Assembly: GCF_003627095.1 (NCBI RefSeq)
Contig: NZ_CP032627.1
Coordinates: forward strand, 2,232,001-2,296,000
Direction of reading: 5' to 3'
Source: Lactococcus allomyrinae
Lineage (GTDB): Bacteria; Bacillota; Bacilli; Lactobacillales; Streptococcaceae
Length of the DNA stretch: 64,000 bases
Below, piece after piece: positions 1 to 62,464 of the stretch (position 1 is its first letter; every line of letters begins with the position of its first letter). The notes under the pieces were generated by a model that was not told the DNA's origin, ran no database searches, and saw only the letters and a list, made by a program, of their open reading frames with translations. Made by a program: the position numbers and the translations under genes.

Positions 1-2
1 CT

Positions 3-446
3 GTCATTACTGACAAGATTTTACGACAACTTCCAGAGTGGTTTGGGATTCCGTCAGCACTGACAGAATATGTCAAGGGAGTGTCAGATAAGATTTTCTA
101 CGTAGCTTTTGACGGAGAGCACTATCTAGGCTTTCTTGCAGGTGAAATTCATTATGGACGGACGGGTGAAAGCTTTGTTTGCGGAGTGTTACCAGAATTT
201 CATTCTAAAGGGATTGGTATGGCACTTTATCATAATTTTGAGCAAAAACTTTTATCGCAAAATTGTGAGAGAGTTGTAGTTAAAACGTTAAGTAGTCAAC
301 GTAAAAATGAATATTATCATAAGACACGCCAGTTTTATAAAGCTCAAAAGTTTGATGAATGGCTAGATTTACCAGAGCTTTGGGGACAGGCAAATCCTTG
401 TTTGCTTATGGGAAAAATATTAAAAAATAGAAGAGAAATAAAATGA
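3..446 (+). CDS. GNAT family N-acetyltransferase, 5' end outside window
   Basis: The reading frame is open from the left edge, so the true start lies upstream; a GTG at 81 is possible but sequence homologous in character to the family continues before it. The visible 147 residues carry the acetyl-CoA-binding core of the GNAT fold: a strand with the segment GVLPEFHSKGIG (Q/RxxGxG/A-type loop) followed by a helix, and a C-terminal YHKTRQFYKAQKF segment typical of the last helix and strand. Substrate unknown. Two copies of the dispersed TGTCAG/CTGACA palindrome fall in the first 70 bases, inside the frame. Its stop ATGA overlaps the start of the ABC-F gene, so the two are translationally coupled. 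Confidence 0.8.
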   Translation, partial: VITDKILRQLPEWFGIPSALTEYVKGVSDKIFYVAFDGEHYLGFLAGEIHYGRTGESFVCGVLPEFHSKGIGMALYHNFEQKLLSQNCERVVVKTLSSQRKNEYYHKTRQFYKAQKFDEWLDLPELWGQANPCLLMGKILKNRREIK

Positions 447-2002
447 GTATTTTAGATGTTAAAAACCTGAGTCACGGCTTTGGTGACCGTGCGATTTTTG
501 AAGATGTGAGCTTTCGGTTGCTCAAAGGCGAGCATATTGGCTTTGTCGGAGCAAACGGCGAGGGTAAATCAACTTTCATGAGCATTATCACAGGCACGCT
601 GACCCCTGATGAGGGTAAGGTAACTTGGTCAAAAAAGCACCGCGTTGGCTACATGGACCAGCACGCAGCGCTTGGCAAAGGCAAAACCACTCGAGAAGCA
701 CTCTCTGAGGCTTTTCAGTATCTTTTTGATGTCGAAGCGGAAATCAATGACACTTATATGAAAATGGCGGAAATGTCAGAAGACGAGATGAATGCTGCCC
801 TCGAAAATGTCGGCGAGCTGCAAGAAGAACTGGACACAGGCGATTTTTATCTGATTGACTCAAAAGTCGAAGAAACCGCGCGTGGACTGGGTCTGACGAA
901 TTTGCTAGATAAGGATGTCGCAGATTTGTCAGGAGGGCAACGGACGAAAATCCTGCTCGGTAAGCTCCTGCTTGAAAAGCCAGATATTTTGCTCTTGGAC
1001 GAACCGACGAATTATCTGGATGAGGAGCATATTTTTTGGCTAAAAAATTATCTGAAAAACTATGAAAATGCCTTTATCTTGATTTCGCACGATGTGTCCT
1101 TCATGGATGAGGTCGTCAACGTCATTTACCATGTGCATGGGCAGGGCATTACGCGCTATTCAATGAGCTATCACGAGTTTGAGCGGGTTTTTGAGGAAAA
1201 GAAAAAGCAGCTTGAAAATCTGCATGATGCGCAAGTGGCGGAAGCAGCGAAATTAAAAGATTTCATTGCCCGTAAAAAAGCCAATGTTGCGACCTCTGGA
1301 CAGGCGAAAGCGCGTGAAAAAATGCTGGCGAAAATGGAAATTGTCGATACCATTCACGAGAAACCAAAACCGCATTTTGATTTCAAATTTAGCCGTAAAC
1401 CGAGCCGTTTGGTCTTTGAGGCGACTGATTTGGTCATCGGTTATGCTGCTGAAAATCCACTGTCTGCACCGATTAATCTCAAAGTCGAAAGCGGGCAAAA
1501 GATTGCCTTTGTCGGCTCAAATGGGATTGGGAAATCCACGCTGCTCAAGAGTCTCATGGGCTTAATTCCTGCACTTTCTGGCGACATTGAAAAAGGAAAT
1601 TTCCAAGACATCGCCTACTACGAGCAGGAAATCAAGGAGCCGTCGCAAAAAACAGTGCTAGACGACCTCTGGGACGAATATCCAAGCTGGAATCAGGCCG
1701 AATTGCGCGGTGCGCTGGCGCGCGTGGGACTCACAACGAAACAAATCGAAACGCGCGTCTATGTGCTGTCAGGCGGTGAGCAAGCCAAGTTGCGCTTTGC
1801 CAAGCTGATGAACACAGAGTCAAACATCTTGATTTTGGACGAACCGACCAATCACCTCGATGTTGATGCGAAAGAGGAGTTAAAACGTGCGCTGATCGAC
1901 TATCCTGGCACGATTTTGATGGTCAGCCACGAACCTGAGTTTTATGAAGGAGTTGTCTCTGATGTGGTCAATTGTGAGGAATGGACGACGAGGATTTTGT
2001 GA
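443..2002 (+). CDS. ABC-F family ATPase (YkpA/YbiT-like)
   Basis: Cytoplasmic protein of 519 residues with two ATP-binding cassettes and no membrane segment, so a ribosome-acting ABC-F protein rather than a transporter. Walker A motifs GANGEGKS near residue 36 and GSNGIGKS near 357; signatures LSGGQRTK near 162 and LSGGEQAK near 439; Walker B followed by DEPTNYLD and DEPTNHLD. The charged linker between cassettes (about 240-300) is the inter-domain arm of the family. Length and linker fit the housekeeping YkpA/YbiT branch; antibiotic target protection is less likely but cannot be excluded. Starts with ATG overlapping the upstream stop. GC is visibly higher than in many neighbours. Confidence 0.9.
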   Translation: MSILDVKNLSHGFGDRAIFEDVSFRLLKGEHIGFVGANGEGKSTFMSIITGTLTPDEGKVTWSKKHRVGYMDQHAALGKGKTTREALSEAFQYLFDVEAEINDTYMKMAEMSEDEMNAALENVGELQEELDTGDFYLIDSKVEETARGLGLTNLLDKDVADLSGGQRTKILLGKLLLEKPDILLLDEPTNYLDEEHIFWLKNYLKNYENAFILISHDVSFMDEVVNVIYHVHGQGITRYSMSYHEFERVFEEKKKQLENLHDAQVAEAAKLKDFIARKKANVATSGQAKAREKMLAKMEIVDTIHEKPKPHFDFKFSRKPSRLVFEATDLVIGYAAENPLSAPINLKVESGQKIAFVGSNGIGKSTLLKSLMGLIPALSGDIEKGNFQDIAYYEQEIKEPSQKTVLDDLWDEYPSWNQAELRGALARVGLTTKQIETRVYVLSGGEQAKLRFAKLMNTESNILILDEPTNHLDVDAKEELKRALIDYPGTILMVSHEPEFYEGVVSDVVNCEEWTTRIL

Positions 2003-2018
2003 GGAGGAGCTTAATAAA

Positions 2019-2483
2019 ATGAGCTGTTTTATTTGCGAGCGTATCGAAATGATTAAAAACGAAACGAATCTGTATTTTGTAAAGGAACTTGAAACAGGTT
2101 ATGTCGTTATCGGCGATTTCCAGTATTTCTATGGTAGAACGATTTTTCTCTGCAAAGAACACGTGACGGAGTTGCATTATCTGGAGTCTACATTCAAGCA
2201 AAAACATCTTGAAGAGATGGCGCTAGTTCAAGAAGCAGTTGCCAAGGCATTTAAAGCTGAGAAAATGAATATTGAAATGCTTGGAAATGCCGATAGTCAT
2301 GTCCATTGGCATCTTTTTCCTCGTCAACAAGGAGATTTACAGCCTTATGCTTCTAAAGGTCCCGTCTGGTGGGTGCCTTTAGAAGTCATGGAAGGCGAAG
2401 CAGCACGTCCAACAAATGAAAAATTAGCAGAAATGGTTGAAACGCTGAGAAAGACACTTGATGAAGTGTTGGAAAGCGAATAA
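2019..2483 (+). CDS. HIT family protein (histidine triad nucleotide hydrolase)
   Basis: 154 residues. The histidine triad appears as HVHWH near residues 94-98, preceded by the conserved N at the end of the core strand, which marks the HIT fold of nucleotide-binding hydrolases and transferases. The N-terminus MSCFICERI has two Cys in a CxxC that may bind a metal, as in some HIT proteins. The start at 2019 is chosen because GAGGAGG lies just upstream; the frame is open further upstream into the ABC-F gene but without support. The natural substrate is not evident. Part of the run from the acetyltransferase to prmA; the stop is followed after one base by the next ATG. Confidence 0.85.
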   Translation: MSCFICERIEMIKNETNLYFVKELETGYVVIGDFQYFYGRTIFLCKEHVTELHYLESTFKQKHLEEMALVQEAVAKAFKAEKMNIEMLGNADSHVHWHLFPRQQGDLQPYASKGPVWWVPLEVMEGEAARPTNEKLAEMVETLRKTLDEVLESE

Positions 2484-2484
2484 A

Positions 2485-2787: not shown

Positions 2788-2807
2788 TAAGGATGGAGAA
2801 GTAAGAA

Positions 2808-3761
2808 ATGAACAACTGGAACAGTATTACGGTAAAAATCACACGAGCGGCTGAGGAGACGATTTCTGCTATTCTGATTGAGGTGGGCGCAGCGGGCGTG
2901 GAAATCAACGATAGCGCGGATTATTTGATGCATGAGGACCAATTTGGCGAAGTGTTGCCGTACGTGGAACAGTCAGATTTGGTGGAGGTAACGGCTTATT
3001 ATCCTGAAAATCTGCCGATTGTCGAGCTGAAAGCGGATATTGAGCATAAAATCAGCGGTTTGAGCGAATTTTTCGATTTGACAGACCTGTCAGTACTGAC
3101 AAATAACCTGTCAGAGACCAACTGGGCGGATGCCTGGAAGAAATATTTTGAGCCAGCACGCGTGACGCATGATTTGACGATTGTGCCGAGCTGGACGGAG
3201 GATTATCATGCGACTGATGGCGAAAAACTCATCAGGCTGGATCCTGGCATGGCGTTTGGCACGGGGACACACCCGACGACGAAGATGAGCCTGTATGCGC
3301 TGGAGCAGGTTTTGCGTGGCGGCGAGATGGTGCTTGATGTCGGGACGGGCTCAGGCGTGCTGTCCGTGGCGAGTGTGCTGCTGGGCGCTGCCGAGGTTCA
3401 TGCTTACGATATTGACGAAGTCGCGGTGCGCGTGGCGTTGGAGAATATCCAGCTCAATGCCGACTATGAGAAAATCTATGTTTCGGCGAATAATTTGCTG
3501 GAAAATGTCACGCAAGAAGCCGATGTCATCGTGGCAAATATTCTAGCGGACATTCTCGTGCTGATGACTGAGGATGCTTACCGACTGGTCAAACCTGAGG
3601 GTTATTTGATTATGAGCGGCATTATCGCTGAAAAAGCGGACATGGTCATTGCAAGTGCTGAAAATGCTGGATTTTTCCTTGAAACACGTATGACACAGGG
3701 AGAGTGGAATTGCGTGATTTTCAAGAAAACGGAAAACCGTGAAGGTGTAATTGGGGGATAA
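2808..3761 (+). CDS. prmA: ribosomal protein L11 methyltransferase PrmA
   Basis: 317 residues, the usual length. Trimethylates ribosomal protein L11 using S-adenosylmethionine. The N-terminal substrate domain (about 1-85, beginning [19 protein letters not shown]) is followed by a Rossmann methyltransferase domain with [14 protein letters not shown] before the SAM loop [12 protein letters not shown] near 174-185, and NILADIL near 244, all PrmA hallmarks. A 16-bp palindrome copy at 3087 encodes LSVLT in the linker between domains. Last gene of the left-hand run, ending in a terminator shared with the convergent exporter. In related genomes rsmE tends to follow directly; here an exporter cassette intervenes. 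Confidence 0.95.
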
Positions 3762-5772: not shown

Positions 5773-6291
5773 ATGAATAAAATAGAAGAAAGAAATTTAA
5801 CAAAAAATTTTATGGAATATACCCAGCTTATGTACTGGGTTGCCCGTAAAAAAATGAGTTTCCGTAAGCAGGTCGGTACGCGTCTTAACCGAATGGTCGG
5901 TCAAGGGCAGATTTTGGGAATTTTAGAGGAGGAGTCACCGATTTCTCAAAGAGACCTTGTTGCTAGACTTGATATGAAACCTCAGTCAGCAAGTGAGATT
6001 ATCAGAAAACTTGAGAAAAAAGGACTGATTAGCCGATGGCAGTCTCCAGAAGATAAGCGAGTTTATATTGTGTCGTTGACTCCTGCGGGTGAGAAGGAAA
6101 TTGACCAGTTTGATGAGTTTGTTGATGTTAGTCCTATTTTGCTTGAGGGATTAGATGATGATGAAAAGGTGGAACTGATGCGATTGATTCAGAAGATGAG
6201 AACTTCGCTTGATGCTCAGGTTGAGAAAGAAGGGGGTAAGCTGCGGGGACAATATCAGCGGTTTGCTCGGAATCCAAAAGAGGCGGAATAA
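5773..6291 (+). CDS. MarR family transcriptional regulator
   Basis: 172 residues with the MarR winged helix-turn-helix at about 45-115: recognition-helix region LDMKPQSASEIIRKLEKKGLI followed by the wing SPEDKRVYIVSLT, both typical. Likely local repressor of the divergent ABC exporter and of itself. There is no Shine-Dalgarno site; the promoter geometry implies a leaderless mRNA. The stop TAA shares its last A with the ATG of rsmE, so the methyltransferase gene is translationally coupled to, and probably controlled with, the regulator. Confidence 0.88.
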   Translation: MNKIEERNLTKNFMEYTQLMYWVARKKMSFRKQVGTRLNRMVGQGQILGILEEESPISQRDLVARLDMKPQSASEIIRKLEKKGLISRWQSPEDKRVYIVSLTPAGEKEIDQFDEFVDVSPILLEGLDDDEKVELMRLIQKMRTSLDAQVEKEGGKLRGQYQRFARNPKEAE

Positions 6292-7043
6292 TGGCAAATC
6301 AATACTTTGTATTTCGTGAACTGCCTGAACTCAACACGACATTCACGATTGAAAATGAAGCAGTAGTGCATCATATTTTTACTGTCATGCGCGCACAGGC
6401 AGGAGAAAAGTTGCAGCTGGTCTTTGACGGTGGAAAAGTTGCTTTAGCGGAGGTTATTAGTCCTGAAGAGCGTTCGGTCAAACTAACAGAAATCCTGTCA
6501 GCACTGACGGAGTTGCCAATAGAAGTCACTGTTGCAGTTGGTTTTCCAAAAGCGGATAAGTTAGATTTTATTACAGAAAAAGCGACAGAGCTCGGTGCAG
6601 CAGCGATATGGGCGGCACCTTTCAAATGGTCGGTTGTCAAATATGACCACAAAAAATTGACGAAAAAGCAAGACAAGCTAGAAAAAATAACACTCGGAGC
6701 GGCGGAACAATCAAGGCGACAAATCTTGCCAGAAATCAAACTTTTTGATCAGCTGTCAGTACTGACAGAAAAGTTTTCTGAATTTGACAGCGTGCTGATT
6801 GCTTACGAAGAATCCGCTAAAGCTGGCGAAAAAGCAGCCTTTCATCAGGCGCTAACAGAGTTACCCAAAGGTCAAAAATTGCTCATTATTTTTGGACCAG
6901 AAGGTGGTATTGCCCCAGAAGAGATCGAAAAGTTTGAGCAGCTTGGCGCTCGCAAAATCGGTCTAGGCCCGCGTATCATGCGAGCCGAGACAGCACCGCT
7001 TTATGCGCTGTCAGTAATTTCTGCTTATTTTGAATTACTATAG
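6291..7043 (+). CDS. rsmE: 16S rRNA m3U1498 methyltransferase RsmE
   Basis: 250 residues, standard length. N-terminal PUA-like RNA-binding domain (about 1-70) and SPOUT methyltransferase domain; the knot shows FGPEGGIAPEEIEKF near 200-216 and LGPRIMRAETAPLYALS near the C-terminus, the two signature stretches of RsmE. Modifies U1498 of 16S rRNA with SAM. Two 16-bp palindrome copies (6495 and 6753) encode LSALT and LSVLT within the frame. One-base overlap with marR. Confidence 0.94.
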   Translation: MANQYFVFRELPELNTTFTIENEAVVHHIFTVMRAQAGEKLQLVFDGGKVALAEVISPEERSVKLTEILSALTELPIEVTVAVGFPKADKLDFITEKATELGAAAIWAAPFKWSVVKYDHKKLTKKQDKLEKITLGAAEQSRRQILPEIKLFDQLSVLTEKFSEFDSVLIAYEESAKAGEKAAFHQALTELPKGQKLLIIFGPEGGIAPEEIEKFEQLGARKIGLGPRIMRAETAPLYALSVISAYFELL

Positions 7044-10887: not shown

Positions 10888-11340
10888 ATGAAAATTGTAA
10901 TTCAACGTGTAAAATCAGCTTCTGTCAGTATTGACAGAGATGTTGTCAGTAAAATTTCTCAAGGGTTGTTACTTTTGGTTGGCGTGGAAGATGCCGATAC
11001 CGAGTTTGATTTAGATTATGCGGTGCGCAAAATCACACAGATGAGGATTTTTTCTGATAGTAATGACAAGATGAATTTGTCAGTACAGGATATTAAAGGA
11101 GAGATTTTGTCTATCTCTCAATTCACCTTGTATGCTGAAACAAAAAAGGGAAATCGCCCGAGTTTTAGCGCTGCAGGGCAGCCAGATTTTGCTCAACAGA
11201 TGTACGAAAAATTTGATAAAAAGTTAACCCAAATTGTCCCCACGCAGGCAGGGGTTTTTGGAGCAGATATGCAAGTTGAGTTGATTAATGATGGACCTGT
11301 CACGATTATTTTAGATACGAAAGAGGCGCGTCATGGCTGA
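10888..11340 (+). CDS. dtd: D-aminoacyl-tRNA deacylase
   Basis: 150 residues, typical length. Removes D-amino acids mischarged onto tRNA. Family marks are [16 protein letters not shown] at the N-terminus, SISQFTLYA near 70 (active-site Ser-Gln stretch) and [11 protein letters not shown] with the Gly-Pro motif near the C-terminus. A palindrome copy at 10922 encodes SVSID, in the same frame and with nearly the same following residues as one in the VOC gene at 61107. The stop overlaps the start of the next gene. Confidence 0.94.
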
Positions 11341-12286
11341 TGAACAAAAGATTACTGATGAAAAGCTGTCAGCATCTGCTCAACATGAGAAAAATGCTGA
11401 CAAATCGTTTGATGAAGCTGAAAATGCCCAACATTTACTGACAGATGTGCAACAAGTTACTGACAGAAAGTTGTCAGTAAATAAAAAAGCAGAATTTGAC
11501 AATAAACGCCAAGCGGAAGCTTTCAAGAAGCTATCCAATAATGAAGAACTTCGTATTGCGAGGCAAGAACTGAAAGATGAGTTTTTGGATTCTCATCCGC
11601 GTTACGCCTCAATGTCTGAGGATGAACTTGGCAAGGAGATGCAAAAGCATAGCATTGAGGAAGACAAGATTCGTAAGCAGAAACTCCGTAATCATATTGA
11701 AACTTTTTCAGACGGAGTGATTGCGGTTATCATCACGATTATGCTACTAGAAATTCCGATGCCTACTACTGACGGTGGATATTGGAACTTTCTGTCAGCA
11801 GTTGGTATTTTCTTGGTCAGTTTTATTGTGATTGCAAATTTTTGGTTCAATCATCACAAAACTTTTGCGATTACTGAGCAGATTACTGAAGGGGTGATTG
11901 TTCAAGATTTTATTTTTATGGGCTTGCTTAGTCTTATTCCGCTGCTGACAAAGTGGATTATGGTACAGCCTACAAGTTTTTCGGCAATTAATTATGGGAT
12001 GATTGTGTTGTTTATTCTTGTTCAACAAGAACTTTTGAGTCGCTCAATCATGCGTGAGCATTTTCATCATATGCCGAAGACATTTCATTTTTGGCAGAAG
12101 ATTTGGGCAAGTCGGTTGATTTTTACTTTACTTGTTAATGTTGTAATTACAATCATTGCGGTTGCTTTTCCAGATTATGGGCATTGGCTATTTATTGTTG
12201 TCCCAATCTTTAACTTTTTCTTCAGAATGTGGGGAGATAAAGGTCAACAACTTCAACCTAACGGTGGATTGAGAGGTATTGAATAA
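11333..12286 (+). CDS. TMEM175-family (DUF1211) potassium channel-like protein
   Basis: 317 residues. The membrane part starts near 120 with the hallmark [17 protein letters not shown], where the FSD motif and isoleucines line the pore of bacterial TMEM175 channels, and continues with FWFNHHKTF and about five to six membrane segments. Bacterial relatives are usually near 200 residues; here a hydrophilic, highly charged extension of about 115 residues precedes the channel. That extension is rich in TGTCAG/CTGACA half sites (four or more between 11365 and 11480), suggesting it grew through or tolerates the repeat. Overlaps the dtd stop by eight bases. Confidence 0.8.
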
Positions 12287-12287
12287 A

Positions 12288-12920
12288 ATGATAAAAGCAA
12301 TTATATTTGATCTTGGTGGTGTAATTATTGACTTGGGATTTGAACGAATGACTAAGCGCTTTGAAGAGCTGGGTATTGAAGACTTTGGTCAATATTTTAC
12401 TCCTAAAAGTCAAGTTGATTTCTTTGAAGATTTAGAGCTTGGCTTGATTGAACCTGAGGAATTCTATGATAAGTTTCGTCAGCATACTGACAGTGAGCTA
12501 ACAGATGCTGTCATTGAAGAAACATGGAATCTTATTCTTAAAGACTTTGATAAACAGCGCATGGCTTTACTGACAGAGCTGTCAGCAAATTATTCACTCT
12601 ATCTTTTTTCAAATACCAATGCGATTCATGCGAAATGTTTTGAGAAAAGATGTTTAGAACAAACAGGTCATCATTTAGAGCACTATTTCACAACGCTTTA
12701 TTATTCTCATGAGTTGCACCTCAGAAAACCAACGGTAGAAAGTTTTAAAAAAGTGCTTCATCATGCAAATCTTGCTGCTCATGAAACACTTTTCATTGAT
12801 GATAATGAAGAAAATATCAAAGGTGCTCAAAAAACTGGCTTGAAAACTTATCATTTACAAACACCAGAACAGCTCACAGATATTGATTTTACAGAACTTC
12901 TATCTAAATACGATAATTGA
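12288..12920 (+). CDS. HAD superfamily hydrolase (YihX-like)
   Basis: 210 residues. Motif I IIFDLGGVI at 5-13 supplies the nucleophile Asp8; motif II appears in LFSNTN, motif III Lys in LRKPTVESF and motif IV in FIDDNEENI, the set seen in HAD IA variant 3 phosphatases such as YihX (alpha-glucose-1-phosphatase). Substrate unproven. ATG 12288 is preferred over the in-frame TTG at 12279 because all visible family residues follow it. It starts two bases after the channel gene stop and is cotranscribed from dtd. An inverted pair CTGACAG..CTGTCAG lies at 12570-12585. Confidence 0.85.
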   Translation: MIKAIIFDLGGVIIDLGFERMTKRFEELGIEDFGQYFTPKSQVDFFEDLELGLIEPEEFYDKFRQHTDSELTDAVIEETWNLILKDFDKQRMALLTELSANYSLYLFSNTNAIHAKCFEKRCLEQTGHHLEHYFTTLYYSHELHLRKPTVESFKKVLHHANLAAHETLFIDDNEENIKGAQKTGLKTYHLQTPEQLTDIDFTELLSKYDN

Positions 12921-15464: not shown

Positions 15465-18053
15465 ATGCCAAATATCATTCGAAAATTTGTCGAAAATGAC
15501 AAAAAAGAGCTAAAAAAACTTAATAAAATGGCGCTCAAGGTTGAATCATTTGCTGATGAAATGGAGCATTTGACTGATGAGCAATTAAAAGCTAAAACTC
15601 AAGAATTTAAAGAACGTGTCGAAAAAGGTGAGGAGCTGGACGATTTACTTTATGAATCATTTGCTGTTTGTCGTGAAGCGGCACGGCGTGTTCTCGGTCT
15701 TTATCCATTCCATGTGCAAATCATGGGTGGGATTGTCCTTCACAATGGTGACGTTCCTGAAATGCGTACAGGTGAAGGTAAAACTTTGACGGCTACTATG
15801 CCAGTTTATCTCAACGCTTTGTCTGGCAAGGGAGTTCACGTTGTTACAGTCAATGAATACTTAGCAACACGTGACATGACTGAGATGGGAGAGCTTTATA
15901 GTTGGCTTGGGCTTACTGTAGGATTGAACTTAAATTCAAAATCTCCAGAAGAAAAGCGTGAAGCATATAATTGTGACATCACTTACTCAACTTCTGCTGA
16001 ACTTGGTTTTGATTACTTGCGTGACAATATGGTAACACGTGCGGAAGACATGGTTCAAAAACCGCTTAACTACGCCCTTGTCGATGAAGTTGACTCTATT
16101 TTGGTCGATGAAGCAAGGACGCCTTTGATTATTTCAGGTCAAGCGGAATCTTCATCTGCCCTTTATTATCGTGCAGACCAATTTGCAAAACAACTCAAAG
16201 GTCAAAACTTGAATATCGCTACTTCTGACTACGAAGAAGGAGATGATTACAAGATTGACTTACAATCTAAAACAATTTCTTTGACTGAAGAAGGGATTGA
16301 TAAAGCCGAGAAATTCTTTGTGATTGATAATCTTTATGATATGGAAAATGTTGCACTTACTCACTTTGTGGATAATGCGCTTCGTGCAAACTATATCATG
16401 CTTCATGATATTGATTATATGGTGGATGAAAATCAAGAAGTCTTGATTATTGATCAATTTACAGGACGGACTATGCCGGGACGTCGCTATTCTGATGGGC
16501 TTCATCAAGCAATCGAAGCAAAAGAGGCTGTTCCTATTCAGGATGAGTCTAAGACGATGGCATCAATCACGATTCAGAACTACTTCCGTATGTATAAGAA
16601 GTTGTCTGGTATGACAGGGACAGCAAAAACGGAAGAAGAAGAATTCCGTGAAATTTATAACATTCAAATTACGCCAATTCCAACGAACCGACCGGTCAAG
16701 CGTATGGACCACCCAGACTTACTTTATCCAACTTTAGAGTCTAAATTTAAAGCTGTTGTAGATGATATTAAACGTCGTCATGCCGAAGGTCAGCCTATTT
16801 TGATTGGTACAGTTGCGGTTGAAACTTCTGAATTAATTTCTAAGAAATTGGTTGAGGCAAAAATTCCGCATGAAGTGTTGAATGCAAAAAACCATTTCCG
16901 TGAAGCACAAATTATCATGAACGCTGGGCAACAAGGGGCTGTAACCATTGCAACTAATATGGCTGGTCGGGGAACTGATATTAAGCTTGGTCCTGGTGTA
17001 ATAGACCATGCAGACCCTGAATTTCAAGGTCTTGCAGTTATTGGTACGGAGCGTCATGAAAGTCGCCGTATTGATAATCAGTTGCGTGGACGTTCTGGTC
17101 GTCAAGGAGACCCTGGTGTTTCTCAGTTTTATCTTTCTCTTGAAGATGATTTGATGAAACGTTTTGGTTCTGAGCGTGTTTCGGCCTTCCTTGACCGCAT
17201 GAGAATTTCTGGTGAAGATGCTGTGATTAAGTCCGGCTTGATTACTCGTCAAATCGAGAGTTCGCAAAAACGTGTCGAAGGAAATAACTATGACAGTCGT
17301 AAGCAAGTTTTGCAATATGATGATGTGATTCGTGAGCAACGTGAAGTGATTTATGCGCAACGGTACAGCGTTATCATGGCGAAAGAAGATATGTCATCGG
17401 AATTGATGGGTATGTTTAAACGTGCAATTGAGCGACAAGTAGATGGTCATGCGATTGCCGGTAACCTAAAAGACGAAGAAACCTTGATGAATCTTCTCCA
17501 AACCGTACAAAATACCATGTTGCCAGAGGATGCAATTGAGTTGTCAGAACTGACAGGTTTGTCAGCGCAAGCTATGAAAGATTTGATTTTTGAGAAAGTC
17601 AAAGTTCGTTATGCCTCACAAATGGAGAAATTATCGGATGCTGATCGTCAACTAGAGTTTCAACGTGCAGTTATCTTACGTGTTGTTGATAACAATTGGT
17701 CGGAACATATTGACCAACTTGACCAAATGCGTCAATCTGTTGGTTTGCGTGGCTATGCTCAAAATAATCCGATTGTTGAATATCAAGAAGAATCTTATAA
17801 GATGTTCAACGATATGATTGGTGCGATTGAGTTTGAGATTACTCGTTTGATGATGAAAGCTCAAATTCAACCACAAACGGCAATACGTCAAGAGGCACCT
17901 CGTGCAATGACAACAGCATCACAAGGAAATATTACTTCTGTCAGCACTGACAATGGTGAAAACCCATTTGCAAATGTGGGGCGTAATGACCTTTGCCCTT
18001 GCGGTTCTGGTAAGAAATTTAAAAATTGTCATGGACGTGCACATATTGCTTAA
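15465..18053 (+). CDS. secA: preprotein translocase ATPase SecA
   Basis: 862 residues. Motor that drives proteins through SecYEG. Nucleotide-binding domain 1 has MRTGEGKT near 101-108 and [20 protein letters not shown] near 206-225; the preprotein crosslinking domain, second nucleotide domain ([12 protein letters not shown], and [13 protein letters not shown]) and helical wing follow; the C-terminus carries the zinc-binding [14 protein letters not shown] used for SecB or lipid contact. Two palindrome copies (17541, 17938) encode LSELT and SVSTD, the second in the flexible linker before the zinc motif. Confidence 0.97.
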
Positions 18054-21476: not shown

Positions 21477-21502
21477 AAAGCTGTCAGTATACTGACAGCT
21501 TT
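21477..21502. repeat. 18-bp palindrome copy after ptsI
   Basis: CTGTCAGTATACTGACAG (21481-21498) is a perfect palindrome extended by AAAG/CTTT. The T run after it is short (TTT), so termination probably relies on the next hairpin. Confidence 0.8.
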
Positions 21503-25384: not shown

Positions 25385-25402
25385 CTGTCAGCATACTGAC
25401 AG
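25385..25402. repeat. 18-bp palindrome copy between argG and argH
   Basis: CTGTCAGCATACTGACAG followed by CTTTT. As a weak hairpin inside the operon it could reduce read-through or process the mRNA between the two genes. Confidence 0.8.
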
Positions 25403-25420
25403 CTTTTGGAAAGTGGAAAA

Positions 25421-26800
25421 ATGGTAGAAAAACTTTGGGGAGGACGTTTTGAAGCGTCTTTAAATAAACAAACTGAAGAATTTGGAGCATCAATTAAATT
25501 TGAACAAAGGCTTGCCCCTTTTGATTTACAAGGTTCACTCGCTCATGTGAAAATGTTGGGGGAAATGGGTATTATCTCTGCTGATGAAGCTGGAAAGATT
25601 GCAGATGGACTGACAGAAGTTGAGCAAAAGCTTATGAGTGGTCAAATCGAATTCAAAATTGAAAACGAAGATATCCATATGAACATGGAATCTTATCTTC
25701 ATGATGAGATAGGCACCATAGCAGGAAAACTTCATACCGCTCGTTCCAGAAATGACCAAGTGGCAACAGATATGCATTTGTATCTGAAAAGTGTGCTGAC
25801 AGAAGTTTTGTCAGTGCTGACAGAACTTCGTCAAACCATTGTCAATTTAGCTGTAAACCATGTTGACACTATCATGCCAGGTTATACCCATTTACAGCAC
25901 GCACAACCTATTTCTTTTGGGCAGCATTTGATGGCTTATTATCAGATGTTTACACGTGATTTTGAACGCTTTGAGTTCAACATAAAACACACGGATATGA
26001 ATCCTTTAGGAGCTGCAGCTCTTGCTGGAACAACTTTTCCAATTGATAGAGCACTGACAACTCAGTTGCTCGGTTTTGACAAAGTTTACACTAATTCAAT
26101 GGATGCTGTCAGCGACCGTGATTTTATTTTAGAATTTCTGTCAAATTCGAGTTTACTGATGATGCACTTATCACGGCTTTGTGAAGAAATTTTACTTTGG
26201 TGTAGTTTTGAGTTTCAATTTGTTACTTTATCAGATGCCTATTCAACAGGGTCTTCGATTATGCCGCAAAAGAAAAATCCTGACATGGCTGAGCTTATAC
26301 GTGGAAAAACAGGACGTGTTTATGGAAATCTGATGGGATTATTGACTGTCATGAAAGGCTTACCTCTTGCTTATAACAAAGATTTACAAGAAGACAAAGA
26401 GGGGATGTTTGACAGCTCAGATACTATCTTGACAGCTCTGTCGGTAATGACAGGAATGCTGTCAACAATGACTGTCAATGATGTAAACATGGAAAGTGCA
26501 ACACAGAAAGATTTTTCAAATGCAACAGAACTTGCAGACTATTTAGCTACAAAGGGAATTCCATTTCGAGAAGCGCATGAAATTGTTGGTAAGTTGGTAT
26601 TAGATTGCACTAAAAAAGGAATCTATCTTCAAGGTGTCAGTTTACAAGATTATCAGAAATTGTCAATGTTGATAGAACAAGATGTTTATGAAGTTCTGAA
26701 ATCAAGAACAGCTGTTGCCAGAAGAACATCACTTGGTGGAACAGCTTTTGATTCAGTAAAATCACAAATTGAACAAGCAAAAAAAGAACTTCAAATTTGA
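25421..26800 (+). CDS. argH: argininosuccinate lyase
   Basis: 459 residues. Cleaves argininosuccinate to arginine and fumarate. Fumarase/aspartase superfamily signature [12 protein letters not shown] near 278-289; [12 protein letters not shown] and [13 protein letters not shown] earlier are the other conserved blocks. ATG 25421 chosen because [11 protein letters not shown] is the family N-terminus. A palindrome copy at 25808 encodes LSVLT and further half sites lie at 26430-26480. Confidence 0.95.
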
Positions 26801-34081: not shown

Positions 34082-34099
34082 CTGACAGATTTCTGTCAG
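34082..34099. repeat. inverted-order palindrome pair and half-site cluster
   Basis: CTGACAG-ATTT-CTGTCAG, followed by CTGACAG at about 34136 and TTGTCAG at about 34177. Four half sites in 100 bp between ruvX and the next gene. Confidence 0.7.
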
Positions 34100-34668: not shown

Positions 34669-34699
34669 AAAAGCTGTCAGCATACTGACAGCTTTTTTG
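34669..34699 (+). terminator. terminator built on the 18-bp palindrome
   Basis: AAAAGCTGTCAGCATACTGACAGCTTTTTT: the palindrome core is 34674-34691, extended by AAAAG/CTTTT and six T. A textbook terminator for the ireB operon. Confidence 0.88.
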
Positions 34700-36254: not shown

Positions 36255-37046
36255 CTATCTTTCTCCTTTTTCTTTTGGAAAATAATTTCCTAGCATTTGT
36301 GCAGAGAGTTTACTCGTGTTTTCTTCACTGTTAGATTTGCCCATTTGATGTAAAATCTTCGCAAATCCAGCATCAATGCGCTCTGCATCGTTTTCGAGAC
36401 CGACTAAAGCTTCGTTAATCAAATCGCTCAGTTTCATGTTGGTTGGGTTGTCGGTTGAAGCGTGTTCTTCAAGATTGGTCTCTGCGACAAGAGGTGGTAC
36501 AAGTTCGACAACGCGCAAGTTTTTACCAAAATATTTTGCTTGTTCACGTAGTGCATCACTGTAAAAGTGAACGCCAGCTTTTGTCAGGTTATAAATCGGA
36601 TGTGCACCATCTGCAAGGTTGGATAAACCAGATGAAACGTTGATGACAGTGCCGTGATTATCAGCCAAAAGAGGTAAGAATGCCTGAGTTACAGCGATTG
36701 TACCAAGTAAATTGGTATGAATTTCTTCTGTCAGCGCTGACAAATTACCGTCAGAATGCTCAAACAAATTGAGCGCGCGCATGATCCCTGCTGAGTTCAT
36801 GACAACATCAAGTTCTGGAAAATTCGTTTTGATAAAATTGACCAGTTCTAGCACAGAATTTTTGTCATCAATATCACTCGTAAAACCTGCAAAATCAGGA
36901 TTTTCAGCCAACACTGTATCTAGGCGCACTTGATTTCGCGCGGTAATGATTACCTTATTGCCCAACTCCGCAAATCGTTTGGCAAAGCCCAGTCCAATCC
37001 CAGATGTGCCACCAGTAATCAAAATCGTATGTTCTGTAAAAGTCAT
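36255..37046 (-). CDS. short-chain dehydrogenase (DltE-like)
   Basis: 263 residues. TGGTSGIGLG at 12-21, NSAG near 86, Ser of NVSSGLS and YNLTK as catalytic Tyr/Lys. The form of the C-terminus (VVELVPPLVAETNLEEH) matches the DltE group of SDRs, named after a dlt-linked gene, but no dlt genes are near. A palindrome copy (36728-36743) lies in the coding region. First gene of the two-gene SDR operon. Confidence 0.87.
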   Translation of the reverse strand: MTFTEHTILITGGTSGIGLGFAKRFAELGNKVIITARNQVRLDTVLAENPDFAGFTSDIDDKNSVLELVNFIKTNFPELDVVMNSAGIMRALNLFEHSDGNLSALTEEIHTNLLGTIAVTQAFLPLLADNHGTVINVSSGLSNLADGAHPIYNLTKAGVHFYSDALREQAKYFGKNLRVVELVPPLVAETNLEEHASTDNPTNMKLSDLINEALVGLENDAERIDAGFAKILHQMGKSNSEENTSKLSAQMLGNYFPKEKGER

Positions 37047-38114: not shown

Positions 38115-38145
38115 AAAACCTGTCAGTATGCTGACAGGTTTATTT
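38115..38145 (+). terminator. terminator built on the 18-bp palindrome
   Basis: AAACCTGTCAGTATGCTGACAGGTTT: core 38120-38137, then TATTTTATG. Confidence 0.8.
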
Positions 38146-40565: not shown

Positions 40566-40727
40566 AATTTGTAAGTTCTGATTAATTAATCCAATCAAGT
40601 CTCACTAACACGATCAGTGTGTATTGATATAAGAGTGCTAATCACTTGATGCAGTAGCCAAGGTTGAAACTCTGTGGATAAATAATGAAAGGGAAACGTT
40701 CTGTCAGCACTGACAGATTTTTTAAGA
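40566..40727 (+). ncRNA. possible small RNA ending in a palindrome terminator
   Basis: A plus-strand terminator, CTGTCAGCACTGACAG plus ATTTTTT (40701-40723), has no coding gene in front of it. Upstream, ATCAAGT (about 40592) pairs with ACTTGAT (about 40643) around the smaller stem ACAC-GATCA-GTGT, and a TATACT -10-like box is at about 40556-40561. This pattern suggests a short structured transcript. No known RNA family recognised. Confidence 0.35.
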
Positions 40728-43751: not shown

Positions 43752-43783
43752 AAAGTTCTGTCAGTATACTGACAGAACTTTTT
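43751..43783. terminator. bidirectional terminator built on the 18-bp palindrome
   Basis: AAAAGTT-CTGTCAGTATACTGACAG-AACTTTTTT; the core (43758-43775) is perfect and the flanks extend the stem by six pairs. Confidence 0.9.
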
Positions 43784-43818: not shown

Positions 43819-44997
43819 TTATCTATTCTTTTTGACGTGTCGTCCATGCAGTAAGTAATAAATAAATGCAATAATAATTGAGAAAATTGCAGAAGCAAAA
43901 TAAAGATTGCGATAGCCAAGTAAAGGCATGATTAGCCCAAGGATAAATGGACCAAATCCGACACCCATATCCATTAAACCAAAGAAAGTTGAAGTTGCGA
44001 CACCTAAACGTTCAAACCCAGAAGTACGAATCGCGATAGCCTGACCAAAAGGAGAGAATGAGCCATAGCCTAAACCGATAAAAATGGCGGCAACTAAGAG
44101 CATCCAACCAGAATGTGCTAGGCCAATCAAGAACAACCCGATCGCGAAGAATAAGTAGGTCGGATACATGACAAAGTTATCTCCGTGAGTGTCAAAAATT
44201 CGACCAGTCAATGGACGAGAAATAAGGACGGTGACAGCATAGACAAGAAAGAAGAAGGAAGCGGCTTGTGCAAGATGAATAGATGAAGCATAGGCATCCA
44301 TGAATGATAAAATACTCGAATATGCAATACCTATCAGAAAGGCGATGAGTGAAATAGGCAGAGCCTTCTTCTCAAAATAATTTGACCAAGCAAATTTTTT
44401 CTTTTTGTCAGTACTGACAGAAGTGTTAGTTGTTGTTTTAGGGATATGTAGGAGAAAAATCCCGATAAGAGCAACAAAAAGTAAAATAGCAGACAGAATA
44501 ATGAGGATGTTAAAACCAGAACTTGCATAAAGAAACATAGATAGAAATGGTCCAACGGCAGAAGACAATGTTACAGAAAGAGCATAATATCCAATCCCTT
44601 CACCGCGACGTGAAGCAGGGACGATGGCTCCAGCAAGTGTTCCTGAGGCAGTTGCGGCGATACCAAATCCGACACCATGAATTAATCGAAGAAGTAAGAG
44701 CAGACCAACGCTGTGAACAGCAAAATAACCAAAAGTAAGAATAAAATAAATAATTGTACCAATATAAAGAAGTTTTTTTGCTCCAAAACGTTTCATATTG
44801 TTCCCTGTCCAGAGTCTGGCAATGAAACCACCGACAATAAAAATACCAGATAAGATACCGGCAATACTGGCTGAGGCATGATATTCAGTCATTGCCATCG
44901 AACCGATGACAACGGTGGGTAAGTAGAAGACGAGATAAAAGATAAAGTTTAGTAGCATATTAATGACAAAGGTCATTGTCCATAATTTTTCTTTCAA
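43819..44997 (-). CDS. MFS transporter
   Basis: 392 residues, 12 membrane segments, with the loop-2/3 motif NMKRFGAKKLLYIG and a second LTGRIFDTHGDNFV in the middle. Resembles drug/metabolite exporters of the YdhP/YfkF kind, substrate unknown. A palindrome copy (44405-44420) encodes SVSTD in the central cytoplasmic loop, where an extra hydrophilic stretch would be harmless. Confidence 0.87.
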   Translation of the reverse strand: MKEKLWTMTFVINMLLNFIFYLVFYLPTVVIGSMAMTEYHASASIAGILSGIFIVGGFIARLWTGNNMKRFGAKKLLYIGTIIYFILTFGYFAVHSVGLLLLLRLIHGVGFGIAATASGTLAGAIVPASRRGEGIGYYALSVTLSSAVGPFLSMFLYASSGFNILIILSAILLFVALIGIFLLHIPKTTTNTSVSTDKKKKFAWSNYFEKKALPISLIAFLIGIAYSSILSFMDAYASSIHLAQAASFFFLVYAVTVLISRPLTGRIFDTHGDNFVMYPTYLFFAIGLFLIGLAHSGWMLLVAAIFIGLGYGSFSPFGQAIAIRTSGFERLGVATSTFFGLMDMGVGFGPFILGLIMPLLGYRNLYFASAIFSIIIAFIYYLLHGRHVKKNR

Positions 44998-45919: not shown

Positions 45920-46705
45920 ATGAAAAAGAAACAAATAAAAGCTCTTACTAGTCTAGTTGTTATTATTATTGCTTTGGCAGTAGGGTATTTTGGCTCTGGA
46001 CATTTGAATATTGGTCAAGCACCTACTCAAACAAGCACCGCAGCATCGTCAAGCGAGGTGCTTTCGACGAGTGTTAAGCAGCAGCCTTTAGATTTTAAAA
46101 ATAAAAGACAGATGGTAATGGCTAATACCGATGCGCTTGGTCGAGCGGTGGATTCGCATATACAACTTAAAAATTCACAAGAACCTCATGTGACACGTGA
46201 GCCGTTAAATTATAATCCTGTTGGTTGGCATAATTATGACTTTTATTATAAAAAATCTGATGGTTCAATCGGTAAAATGTGGTTGATGGCAAGAGGTCAT
46301 CTCGTGGGTTATCAATTTTCAGGATTAAATGATGAACCACGGAATTTAGTACCTGAAACAGCTTGGTTTAATGGTGGAAACTATACTGGGATGAATGATA
46401 GTAATACAGCTAGTATGTTATATTACGAAAATCGCTTAGATAGCTGGCTTGCAAATCATCCTAATTATTACCTTGATTATCAAGTCACTCCTCTTTACAA
46501 AGGCAATGAACTTTTGCCGAGACAAATTCGTTTGGCTTATGTAGGTATCGATAAAAACGGTCAGCCTTTAACGATTAAGTTGGGCGGAGGACGTGAAAAA
46601 ACAGGTAATGGTGGCGCAACGGTAGTCGTTCTTGATAATTACGCACCAAACGCTAAAATTAACTATGCTGATGGAACAGCAGTAAATACAGTCAGTCCTA
46701 AATAG
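45920..46705 (+). CDS. membrane-anchored DNA/RNA non-specific endonuclease (EndA-like)
   Basis: 261 residues. Signal anchor at about 7-27, Ser/Thr-rich linker, then a beta-beta-alpha metal nuclease domain. The EndA motif is present as ARGHLVGYQFSG with the catalytic His, followed by NLVPETAWFN and GMNDSNTASMLYYE that hold the metal Asn residues. The usual DRGH has Ala for Asp here. EndA degrades one strand of incoming DNA during pneumococcal transformation and acts as a surface DNase; either role is possible. Promoter geometry indicates a leaderless mRNA. Confidence 0.85.
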   Translation: MKKKQIKALTSLVVIIIALAVGYFGSGHLNIGQAPTQTSTAASSSEVLSTSVKQQPLDFKNKRQMVMANTDALGRAVDSHIQLKNSQEPHVTREPLNYNPVGWHNYDFYYKKSDGSIGKMWLMARGHLVGYQFSGLNDEPRNLVPETAWFNGGNYTGMNDSNTASMLYYENRLDSWLANHPNYYLDYQVTPLYKGNELLPRQIRLAYVGIDKNGQPLTIKLGGGREKTGNGGATVVVLDNYAPNAKINYADGTAVNTVSPK

Positions 46706-46817
46706 ATACTGACAGAAATTTGTCAGTTTCATCAGTGGATAAAAATCCTGTCAGTATGCTGACAGAATTGCCGTAATAAAAAATCAGTCAAAAGACCGAG
46801 TAAATCGGTCTTTTTTA
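46706..46817 (+). terminator. palindrome copies followed by a terminator
   Basis: CTGACAG-AAATT-TGTCAG at about 46710, then CTGTCAGTATGCTGACAG (46748-46765), then AAAGACCGA-GTAAA-TCGGTCTTTTTT (about 46792-46816) as the strong terminator. Confidence 0.8.
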
Positions 46818-51921: not shown

Positions 51922-51966
51922 CTGTCAGTGCTGACAGAAAATTTTACTTTGTCAGCATACTGACAA
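51922..51966. repeat. two palindrome copies before gatC
   Basis: CTGTCAGTGCTGACAG (51922-51937) and TTGTCAGCATACTGACAA (51949-51966) only 11 bp apart, followed by CTGTCAA. They lie between the codY terminator and the gatC promoter. Confidence 0.8.
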
Positions 51967-60255: not shown

Positions 60256-60310
60256 GAAGTTTGCGAAGCGACGTCAATCCATTGTTGATTTTTACAAGGG
60301 ATTAGTTATA
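60256..60310 (+). repeat. BOX-like 55-bp repeat, copy 3
   Basis: GAAGTTTGCGAAGCGACGTC, then AATCCATTGTTG, T run, ACAAGGGATTAG, TATA. The rest of the gap 60082-60481 has no gene; a partial copy (CAATTTCATTGTTGC) is at about 60446. Confidence 0.65.
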
Positions 60311-60481
60311 AAAAACTTATTTCGATGAGGAAAACATGAAAGTGCTTGCAATGCGATTCTAATCTTGCTAAAATTATTCTATAAAACGCAGTAAGTATAA
60401 TGAGTGCTAACTAACATATTGTGACGTTAGCTTTGCATCATGACAGCAATTTCATTGTTGCTTAAAAGTATGGAGAAAGTT

Positions 60482-60913
60482 ATGAAAATTAATAAAACAG
60501 TAGATGCACCACGAGAATTTATTTTTGAAAAAATCATTGATTCTTGTCTTTATGATATTGAAAAAAATACGGGGAAACGTCCAAAAGTTCGCAGCCTAAG
60601 TGGTTATGAATATACGAAAACCTTCGGAAAAAATCAAAAGGGAACGATTAAAATCAATGAATTAACTGACCCAAGTATCTATGAATTTACGACAAAAACG
60701 AATCGTAATACTTTTAAAACACGTTGGGAACTGCACAAGATTGATGACCGTAGCACAGATATTATCATTGAGGAAACTCAAAGCTCAAACGGTACAATAC
60801 AGATGATAAATGATAAATTTGTTGGACTAATTCTTGGACGATTGAAAAAGCGTCAAATGTTGGCGGTTTTGGATAATATCAATCGGGCTTACAATGGAGG
60901 AACAACACGGTAA
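60482..60913 (+). CDS. DUF3284 family protein
   Basis: 143 residues, no membrane segment; the opening VDAPREFIFEKIIDSCLYDIEKNTGK resembles the START-like DUF3284 proteins of lactic acid bacteria. Function unknown; a lipid- or ligand-binding pocket is typical of the fold. ATG 60482 with GGAGAAAG before it; upstream in-frame starts cover that site. Fifteen bases before the VOC gene. Confidence 0.75.
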   Translation: MKINKTVDAPREFIFEKIIDSCLYDIEKNTGKRPKVRSLSGYEYTKTFGKNQKGTIKINELTDPSIYEFTTKTNRNTFKTRWELHKIDDRSTDIIIEETQSSNGTIQMINDKFVGLILGRLKKRQMLAVLDNINRAYNGGTTR

Positions 60914-60928
60914 AGGGGTTTTGAATCA

Positions 60929-61312
60929 ATGAAAATAGAACATATTGGATTAATGGTTCAGGATTTGGAAAAGATGCGTCAGTTTTATGAGCATTATTTT
61001 GAGGCGAGCGCAGGCGAAAAATATCATAATCCTAAAACTACTTTTCAATCTTACTTTTTGAGTTTTGCTGATGGAGCAAGATTGGAAATTGGTACAAAAG
61101 AGAATTCTGTCAGTACTGACAGAAATGTTGTCAGCACGGGTTATGCACATTTGGCTATTTCTGTGGGGTCAAAAGATCGTGTCAATCAACTTGCCCAGCA
61201 GTTTCAAACAGATGGTTTTACGATAAAATCAGGTCCGAGAACAACAGGTGATGGTTATTATGAAGCGGTAGTGCTTGATCCAGAAAAAAATGAAATCGAA
61301 ATTACAATTTAA
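60929..61312 (+). CDS. VOC family (glyoxalase/bleomycin resistance fold) protein
   Basis: 127 residues, two beta-alpha-beta-beta-beta modules. Metal-ligand candidates are His in MKIEHIGLMV, Glu in RLEIGTKE, His in GYAHLAISV and Glu in DPEKNEIEIT, so probably an active metalloenzyme such as a lactoylglutathione lyase-like protein. A perfect 16-bp palindrome (61107-61122) encodes SVSTD in a loop between the modules, an insertion-tolerant place. Confidence 0.88.
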   Translation: MKIEHIGLMVQDLEKMRQFYEHYFEASAGEKYHNPKTTFQSYFLSFADGARLEIGTKENSVSTDRNVVSTGYAHLAISVGSKDRVNQLAQQFQTDGFTIKSGPRTTGDGYYEAVVLDPEKNEIEITI

Positions 61313-61332
61313 AATTATACCTGTATAGAAAT

Positions 61333-61376
61333 GACCAGTCCAAAGATTATTTTTGGAACTGGTTATTATTTTTTAG
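61333..61376 (+). terminator. terminator of the VOC gene
   Basis: ACCAGTCCAAA and TTTGGAACTGGT pair with one bulge, followed by TATTATTTTTT. Confidence 0.75.
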
Positions 61377-61412
61377 CTATACCGAGGAAGAGTTTTAATC
61401 GGCAAAATATTG

Positions 61413-61427
61413 TGTTAAAATGAATTT
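61413..61427 (+). promoter_or_regulatory. extended -10 promoter of the Eis-like gene, leaderless geometry
   Basis: TGT-TAAAAT (61413-61421) ends 6 nt before ATG 61428. Confidence 0.6.
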
Positions 61428-62464
61428 ATGAATACGAATACAAAAGAAAAAAAAGAACTGTTAGATTTGACGATTTATGCTTTCCATAAGCCTTTGACAG
61501 CAGCACGTGAGGCAGCATTCTACAAACTCCTAGAATTTTCAAAAGCTTATCAGCACCGTGAAAGTGAACGACTGACCTCAATGGTCATTGACACGCACTT
61601 TGAAGTTTTTTGGAAAAAGCAACAACTCAAAATGTCAGGAGTTGGTTATGTCGCAAGTTATCCAGAAGCTAGGGGAATGGGGCTATTCGTCAGTTAATGA
61701 CCCAACTTTTGCAGGAAAATTATGAAGCTGGCACGGCTCTTTCTTATCTTGCACCATTTTCTTATCAATTTTATGGTAAATTCGGTTATTCATATGCTTT
61801 TGACCAAAAATCTTATATGATGAAAGCAGTAGATTTTCCTAAAGGTCAAAAAACAAAAGGTGAAATGAAGAGAGAAATGCTGACAGAGTCTGCTATTAGT
61901 GATGATTCTGCTGATTCGCTTTTGTCAGTACTGACAGAAATTCATCAGCAAGCTTACAATCAAGGCTCACTCATTCGTCCACCGCATTTATGGGATTATT
62001 ATTTCAACCACAAGTCTCAGCCGTATTTTGCAATCTATCGTGAAGAGGGGAAGGCTATGGGCTACCTTATTTATGAGTTTTCAGAAATGACTTTTGTTAT
62101 TCGTGAATTGATTTTTTTGACAGAATCCGCAAAGCAAGGCTTATACCATTTTGTTTATAGTCATGCAGGAAGTTTTGATAAGGTGTCGTGGGTTGCTACC
62201 AGCGATACTCAACTTGAGTACGATATGCCAGAGCCAGCGCGTGCAACAATCCAGCTTATTCCTTATATGCAGGCGCGTATCGTAAATTTGCATGAATTTT
62301 TGAAGATAAATGGTCAGCCAAATTTTGCCGCAGAAATCGTAGATGAACTTATCCCAGAAAATAATCAAGTTGTAGGAACAGGACACCCAGAGAAAATGAC
62401 AATAGGTGAATTTACAGCAAAAGTATTACGCGAAAATCATGCCATTCTTCGTGAATATTTTTAA
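61428..62464 (+). pseudogene. Eis-like GNAT acetyltransferase, frameshifted
   Basis: The frame from 61428 gives 82 residues of a GNAT domain ending GVGYVASYPEARG, then shifts and stops at 61697. The continuation from 61697 (QLMTQLLQENYEAGTALSYLAPFSYQFYGKFGYSYAF) has the second half of motif A, a second GNAT-like part and an SCP2-like tail (MQARIVNLHEFLKING), the Eis layout. One more A in GGGGAATGG (61674-61682) restores EARGNGAIRQLM and 345 residues. A perfect palindrome copy lies at 61922. Pseudogene or sequencing error. Confidence 0.87.

Follow-up and report, generated by a model that had tools for sequence, protein, structure and literature searches.

A 64-kb window of the Lactococcus allomyrinae chromosome (assembly GCF_003627095.1, contig NZ_CP032627.1, positions 2,232,001 to 2,296,000; G000 C1:2232001-2296000 in our genome set) was analysed for a dispersed palindrome built from the half-sites TGTCAG and CTGACA. 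In this genome, neighbouring half-sites lie on a common side of the helix up to distances of about 300 bp. The helical phasing of the half-sites, in coding and intergenic DNA, is new here; that a given half-site keeps phase over 300 bp is direct evidence, at sequence level, of a protein surface reading one DNA face at long range. Moreover, the signal is genus-wide but not universal, and relatives use dialects of one half-site: TGTCAG-N2-CTGACA (dialect A), CTGAC-N6-GTCAG (dialect B) and TTGAC-N6-GTCAA (dialect C).

The dyad and its phasing on the helix

An earlier note, made from the sequence of the window alone, had described a TGTCAG/CTGACA palindrome family across the whole window. The family is real. 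The window (38.4% GC) contains 18 exact dyads, 11 of the form TGTCAG-N2-CTGACA (A2) and 7 of the form TGTCAG-N4-CTGACA (A4), and one additional dyad with an 8-bp spacer, while 0.005 dyads per spacing were expected under an order-2 Markov model of the window and 0.054 from its observed hexamer frequencies. The 23 paired sites listed in that note comprised these 18 exact dyads, each lying one base to the right of where it had been placed, and five imperfect ones (6495, 10922, 18072, 19236 and 28890); among the listed variants, 12570 and 34082 turned out to be exact pairs in divergent order, while 1, 51 and 40946 are imperfect. The note had also proposed a genome-wide count, and there the excess held: the complete genome (2.76 Mb) contains 349 copies of TGTCAGNNCTGACA and 0 of the reversed pattern. 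Chance or base composition as the source of the dyads was ruled out by the Markov, hexamer and reversed-pattern controls.

Anatomy and phasing were analysed in 744 kb of the same chromosome, consisting of the window and 34 further stretches. Inverted half-sites occurred 95 times at a spacing of 2 bp, once at 3 bp and 62 times at 4 bp, never at 0, 1 or 5-7 bp, and 0-3 times at each spacing from 8 to 20 bp. Divergent pairs (CTGACA-N-TGTCAG) were counted 18 times at 6 bp (E6) and 41 times at 7 bp (E7), and 3, 7, 2 and 6 times at 3, 4, 5 and 8 bp. Since the commonest spacers were TA, CA and TG in the N2 form and TATA, CATA and TATG in the N4 form, the half-site is read as TGTCAGYA (reverse TRCTGACA). 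It is usually preceded by TC or TTC, and the flanks beyond it are not conserved, apart from A/T runs around the N4 form. The unit of the signal is a dyad of the half-site TACTGACAG(AA). Of the many single half-sites of the earlier note, about half (265 of 568 TGTCAG in 344 kb, six spacings tested) sit in exact pairs. A further 183 lack any partner, even one with two mismatches; their density of 0.53 per kb is only 2.5 times that in a motif-free relative (0.21 per kb).

One period and one offset were fitted to 1159 pairs of half-sites from neighbouring dyads, at distances of 14-305 bp and in all three relative orientations. The best period was 10.32 bp with a mean cosine of 0.39, and a bootstrap over loci gave 10.328 bp with a standard deviation of 0.014. 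The mean cosine decayed from 0.50 at 14-60 bp to 0.29 at 255-305 bp and -0.02 at 305-355 bp; beyond this it was 0.16 at 355-405 bp, 0.22 at 405-505 bp and about zero further out. When whole dyads were jittered by up to 10 bp, the observed phasing was reached in 0 of 200 permutations both at 15-105 bp (z 11.1) and at 105-305 bp (z 8.8), and in the window alone, which belongs to the fitted set, in 0 of 300 at both ranges. Phasing was present alike in pairs of the coding, intergenic and mixed kinds, with best periods of 10.34, 10.24 and 10.34 bp; because intergenic pairs are phased as well as coding ones, codon or alpha-helix periodicity was ruled out as the source.

In other genomes the phase parameters were kept fixed at the values from L. 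allomyrinae. Phasing at 15-105 bp recurred in genome G011 (0 of 300 permutations), in a pooled dialect A set (0 of 300) consisting of G005, G013, L. hircilactis and Lactococcus sp. dk101, whose species may overlap while their loci do not, in G045, a genome of a second genus (2 of 300), and in a pooled dialect B set (0 of 300). At 105-305 bp it recurred in the pooled A set (4 of 300) and in G045 (1 of 300). Dialect C, for which an own offset was fitted, peaked at 10.36-10.38 bp in an analysis without permutation, and a motif-free set yielded just 3 and 12 pairs, too few for a phase test.

The periodicity is specific to the motif. Among 206 hexamers of similar abundance, the top three scores (60, 44 and 36) all belonged to the motif, the next was about 10, the median was 1.4, and no hexamer unrelated to the motif exceeded 11; after filtering for similar flanks, non-motif hexamers scored 10.4 or less. 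High period scores of the control hexamers GTAGAC, AATCAC and GAGGTA were traced to one tandem array in the stretch L211, the sequence of which also contains TCACTC, the reverse of GAGTGA. In this DNA, A or T runs had no top-three peak within 10.1-10.6 bp. The A-tract periodicity of prokaryotic genomes is also a helical-period signal (PMC3431218, PMC7537859), whereas the signal described here is the phasing of one particular six-base half-site, with a period of 10.33 bp.

Two other repeats were noted. The array in L211 (G000:C1:1580001-1600000) is long and lies in the first 5 kb of that stretch, and a similar-looking array is present in L069 of G010. Additionally, stretches of about 190-290 bp in L030 (17363-17665) and in L033 (G011) match several loci of the L. 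allomyrinae genome at 70-89%, possibly as another dispersed repeat.

Placement and upkeep of the sites

The exact sites of the window are listed below by window position, with predicted open reading frames (ORFs) given by their coordinates.

3088..3101, A2 dyad TGTCAG-TA-CTGACA inside ORF 2808-3761
3096..3114, divergent pair E7 (CTGACA-N7-TGTCAG)
6754..6767, A2 dyad in ORF 6291-7043; A2 at the same codons in L. hircilactis and dk101
11460..11477, divergent pair E6 (CTGACA-N6-TGTCAG) in ORF 11333-12286
12570..12585, dialect B pair CTGACA-N4-TGTCAG in ORF 12279-12920; also B in G007, L. cremoris and L. taiwanensis
17542..17555, A2 dyad in secA; A2 in L. hircilactis, B in G007 over the same ELSELTGLS residues
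17550..17565, dialect B pair in secA, overlapping the A2 dyad 17542..17555
17939..17952, A2 dyad in secA; no dyad at these codons in 9 of 9 relatives aligned there
21482..21497, A4 dyad with spacer TATA, 3' of the ptsI ORF 19730-21457, terminator-like
25386..25401, A4 dyad between an ORF end (25382) and an ORF start (25406), overlapped by a 93-aa antisense ORF
25796..25814, divergent pair E7
25809..25822, A2 dyad in ORF 25406-26800
34082..34099, divergent pair E6 between an ORF end (34054) and an ORF start (34175)
34675..34690, A4 dyad between an ORF end (34534) and an ORF start (34736), A-rich before and T-rich after
36729..36742, A2 dyad in ORF 36255-37046 (minus strand)
38121..38136, A4 dyad between convergent ORFs
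40702..40715, A2 dyad between ORFs
43759..43774, A4 dyad between convergent ORFs, terminator-like stem
44406..44419, A2 dyad in ORF 43819-44997 (minus strand)
46709..46726, divergent pair E6, 3' of ORF 45920-46705
46749..46764, A4 dyad, 3' of ORF 45920-46705
51923..51936, A2 dyad between ORFs
51950..51965, A4 dyad between ORFs
61108..61121, A2 dyad in ORF 60929-61312
61116..61134, divergent pair E7
61923..61936, A2 dyad in ORF 61697-62464

The sign of the chromosomal GC skew switches in the region from about 2.12 to 2.23 Mb, and parB is located at G000:C1:2228434, about 3.3 kb before the window; therefore, the window start is near oriC. With ori and ter located by GC skew, no ori-ter gradient of the dyads was detected (Spearman 0.20, p 0.24, 37 pieces of 20 kb), and a gradient suspected by eye in the first 14 stretches was not upheld after 20 more.

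Placement was determined with a simple ORF caller (at least 90 aa) in the 344 kb. A2 dyads were mostly inside predicted ORFs (43 of 60), A4 dyads were outside them and mostly near gene 3′ ends (33 of 35), and 21 of the 33 divergent pairs at spacings 6-7 were likewise outside, mostly near gene 3′ ends. Only 6 of the 71 non-ORF sites were located in divergent, promoter-bearing intergenic regions (2 of 17 A2, 2 of 33 A4 and 2 of 21 divergent pairs); sites between genes of the same direction are assignable by position neither to promoters nor to terminators. Judged from position and sequence, the form with the 4-bp spacer probably doubles as an intrinsic terminator.

Exact copies outnumber near-misses. 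In the same 344 kb, exact and one-mismatch A2 dyads stood at 60:20, dialect C gave 29:9 in G009 and dialect B 10:2 in G007, and in 200 kb of the motif-free G003 neither an exact nor a one-mismatch A2 dyad was found. The copies are probably actively maintained candidate binding sites.

The dyads are nearly absent from the mobile DNA that was covered. A gap of 120 kb without N2 sites is located at C1:177.6-297.9 kb of the L. allomyrinae genome; in the 117 kb of this region that were read, a single dyad (N4) was present, with about 35 expected from the density of all five dyad classes elsewhere in the genome (0.30 per kb). ORFs were read in one of six stretches of the region (L004), and since they matched an AAA_10 ATPase, a TraG/TraD-type coupling protein and, weakly and below the cut-off, Replic_Relax, the region is a putative integrative conjugative element. 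The two plasmids of the genome (63 kb), of which the smaller has a Rep3 initiator, contained 0 dyads. Ten lactococcal phage records (384 kb) contained 0 matches to dialect B, the only pattern counted in phages, of which L. cremoris has 160 copies and L. taiwanensis 562 (reversed controls 5 and 4).

Two further genes of this mobile DNA were recorded. On the island, L004:6671-10084 (G000:C1 about 246.7-250.1 kb) encodes a helicase with ResIII, SNF2, DEAD and Helicase_C matches, in which Hint and LAGLIDADG homing-endonuclease domains sit at the likely P-loop, apparently as an intein. A C-5 cytosine DNA methylase is encoded on the 8.3-kb plasmid (L173:1212-2216).

Dialects among relatives

A comparison of copy number between Lactococcus species, also proposed in the earlier note, was performed with 18 genomes of the genus. 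Whole-genome counts of N2 dyads ranged from 0 to 705 (705, 494, 376, 349 in L. allomyrinae and 71; others 0-20), those of dialect B as CTGACA-N4-TGTCAG were 189, 115, 98, 39 and 33 (others 0-19), and those of dialect C as TTGACA-N4-TGTCAA were 540 and 101 (others 0-12). At named loci of 17-22 kb, A was found in L. hircilactis and dk101, B in L. cremoris and L. taiwanensis, and C in L. nasutitermitis. In the relA region of L. cremoris (L090), dialect B occurs 9 times in 22 kb, several times the genome average (160 in 2.3 Mb). Named loci of four species of the L. garvieae group had no dialect, two of these species having one relaxed-B match each genome-wide, and no convincing substitute palindrome was found in 200 kb of G003 from this group. 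A fourth form, CTGAC-N9/10-GTCAG, occurs 22 times in 200 kb of G012.

Beyond the genus N2 dyads are rare. Among 295 genomes of the family, N2 dyads outside the genus reached a comparable number only in G045 (440), two congeners of which had 36 and 19, the rest having 0-5; among 118 genomes of the order, more than two occurred only in L. allomyrinae. In 1182 kb of Streptococcus loci there was no N2, N4 or relaxed-B site.

In a RelA tree L. allomyrinae was placed beside L. cremoris, L. taiwanensis and G007 (94-95% identity, support 100/99), and L. hircilactis and dk101 formed a separate clade. Dialect and phylogeny thus do not simply coincide, because an A genome is sister to B species and the other A species stand apart. 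Six window sites were aligned at codon level. The codons of site 3088 bear A in L. allomyrinae, B in G007, L. cremoris and L. taiwanensis and C in L. nasutitermitis over a conserved LTxLS peptide, so that dialects can switch by substitution in place; no dyad is present at these codons in the L. garvieae group or in L. hircilactis and dk101, both of dialect A. The sharing of sites varies, and site 17939 is without a counterpart in the relatives that align there.

What may read the sites

Because phasing persists across varying distances and orientations, what the reader requires is a shared face of the helix and not one set spacing. Very probably a multivalent or surface-bound protein contacts the half-sites along one face. 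Such a protein would touch several half-sites on one face of near-straight, relaxed DNA, and it could be a multivalent complex, a filament or a receptor lattice. Relaxed B-DNA has 10.5 bp per turn, to which the observed 10.33 bp is close and slightly below, and the torsional persistence length of DNA is close to about 300 bp. Reach and pitch together would suit straight, unconstrained DNA, e.g. linear DNA outside the cell.

We lean towards a reader within the competence DNA-uptake apparatus that favours conspecific DNA, because uptake-biased recombination is a recognised route to multiply exact copies inside genes; we hold this as possible rather than probable. Uptake-biased recombination would also leave newly arrived mobile DNA unmarked, and the dialects would change when the specificity of the reader changes. 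In its full form the proposal is a species-specific self code, in which half-sites are locked to one helix face over about 30 turns. Its reader would be a multivalent surface, namely the tip of a pilus, a lattice of membrane receptors or a filament, and would sense a large number of sites simultaneously along DNA that is relaxed and stiff in torsion. This full form can be put forward only tentatively, and we regard it as rather unlikely.

The earlier note had likened the family to uptake sequences. The likeness holds for abundance, placement in coding regions and terminators, near-absence from mobile DNA, excess of exact copies and dialects; it fails for the unit, which is a dyad of two half-sites, in two orientations and phased, and not a single oriented motif. 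DNA uptake sequences (DUS) of Neisseriaceae and uptake signal sequences (USS) of Pasteurellaceae share the many copies, inverted terminator pairs, an atypical distribution in integrative conjugative elements and species dialects (PMC3630211, PMC7371117, PMC7811141). The lactococcal unit differs from them as a dyad in two orientations with phasing between dyads and in its Gram-positive host. The signal is uptake-like in several ways, yet it is not classed as an uptake sequence, as unit and geometry differ.

Pneumococcal DNA binding has been placed on the minor pilins ComGD and ComGF, key residues of which are kept in L. lactis (PMC12040237); these pilins may be regarded as candidate readers, nothing more. 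Pilin N-methyl domains, 1-2 in each of the 18 genus genomes, were uninformative as to the motif, and ParB was rejected as a discriminating reader, a strong homologue being present in 18 of 18 genomes with or without the motif. A ComEC match was found in 17 of the 18 genomes, motif-bearing and motif-free alike. Two frames are short (G001:C20:35889, 473 aa; G003:C1:457573, 386 aa; the other 15 matched genomes 733-758 aa), suggesting broken competence genes.

Several observations speak against an uptake reader or weaken the case for it. Full-length ComEC frames are present in genomes with no or few copies (G004, G006, G008, G010 and G017), so ComEC does not separate motif-bearing from motif-free species; L. 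cremoris (G001) has the motif yet a short frame. DUS and USS are single, oriented and non-palindromic, whereas lactococcal single half-sites are only modestly enriched. A second USS within 100 bp brought no gain in uptake in Haemophilus influenzae (PMC7811141), and phasing is therefore not predicted by the USS model. Long-range phasing (105-305 bp) was not significant in G011 (35 of 300) and dialect B (90 of 300). Weak phasing was seen in the combined island and plasmid DNA (z 2.1 for 11 pairs, 2.4 for 24 pairs) and at short range in Streptococcus (z 2.7 for 37 pairs, largely from orthologous loci; at long range -1.0 for 84 pairs), so the contrast with the controls is not perfectly clean. The excess of exact copies fails for strict B in G016 (3:6) and L. 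taiwanensis (3:4), and even spacing of the dyads was not found, the gaps being about random (coefficient of variation 1.05 over 98 gaps). Any slowly accumulating signal would also be expected to be missing from mobile DNA, and a protein setting the twist would explain pitch and reach equally well.

The main rival is a nucleoid or chromosome-architecture protein, cytoplasmic or membrane-tethered, that binds dyads cooperatively along one face, an explanation that is doubtful but a serious one. DNA-binding proteins that act as oligomers typically have sites with dyad symmetry, discrete spacings and helical phasing, and the lactococcal sites are chromosome-wide without an ori-ter gradient. MatS, Noc boxes and SlmA sites are dispersed dyads for a dimeric protein and are restricted to or excluded from ori or ter domains; the lactococcal dyads, in contrast, lack such domain restriction and ori or ter bias, have far more copies and show dialect turnover. 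Genome-scale dialect differences between sister species, and the near lack of sites in the L. garvieae group, would mean a fast change for a core chromosome protein, and the 10.33-bp pitch is unlike that usually expected of underwound intracellular DNA.

A self-marker for recombination, repair or defence (Chi-like or anti-nuclease), read by an intracellular enzyme, would fit the near-absence from the plasmids, island and phages examined, but it is unlikely, as the sites are symmetric phased dyads and Chi is oriented and non-palindromic. Slightly less likely still is a palindrome kept by methylation and repair bias, with dialects set by different methyltransferases, as in the highly iterated palindrome HIP1 of cyanobacteria. 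HIP1 is also dispersed, with alternate forms in relatives and matching methyltransferases; it is, however, a contiguous 8-mer tied to these enzymes, and in the available part of that paper helical phasing between sites has no role in the model (PMC4390886). The lactococcal half-sites are gapped with variable spacing, and their use at spacings of 2 and 4 in both orientations does not resemble the fixed target of a methylase.

Operators for transcription factors, or terminators of the intrinsic kind and nothing else, would agree with the A4 placement near gene 3′ ends and with a study of L. lactis MG1363, which reported as candidate regulatory motifs CTGACAGWTCTRTCA, present ahead of every member of the PyrR regulon, and variably spaced repeats of TGTCAGT (PMC3547956). 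Both look like pieces of dialect B. The pertinent section of that paper gives them as upstream regulatory motifs, with no mention there of genome-wide intragenic copies (PMC3547956). This explanation is very unlikely in view of the many A2 dyads inside ORFs, the few non-ORF sites in divergent regions (tandem regions being ambiguous) and the phasing of coding pairs. A mobile palindromic element (repetitive extragenic palindrome, miniature inverted-repeat transposable element or BOX-like) would account for a repeated, often hairpin form and can practically be dismissed, since the flanks are conserved for a few bases only and aligned codons at the six window sites differ by substitution, not insertion.

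A term search of the main text of a 2024 paper on lactococcal competence regulation found neither an uptake sequence nor the hexamers (PMC11244767). Among the matches listed from the open-licence PMC literature there was no report of the signal as a genome-wide feature, which does not show its absence from print.

The near-absence of the dyads from mobile DNA provides a simple tool to spot recent acquisitions, and the dialects are a natural experiment for finding the reader. The well-known uptake sequences, DUS and USS, are Gram-negative. If the self code were true, it would to our knowledge be the first sequence-specific uptake code of a Gram-positive bacterium and the first that is helically phased. 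A comparable uptake system in the lactococci, which include model species from food, would alter the view of transformation specificity in Gram-positive bacteria and guide strain engineering.

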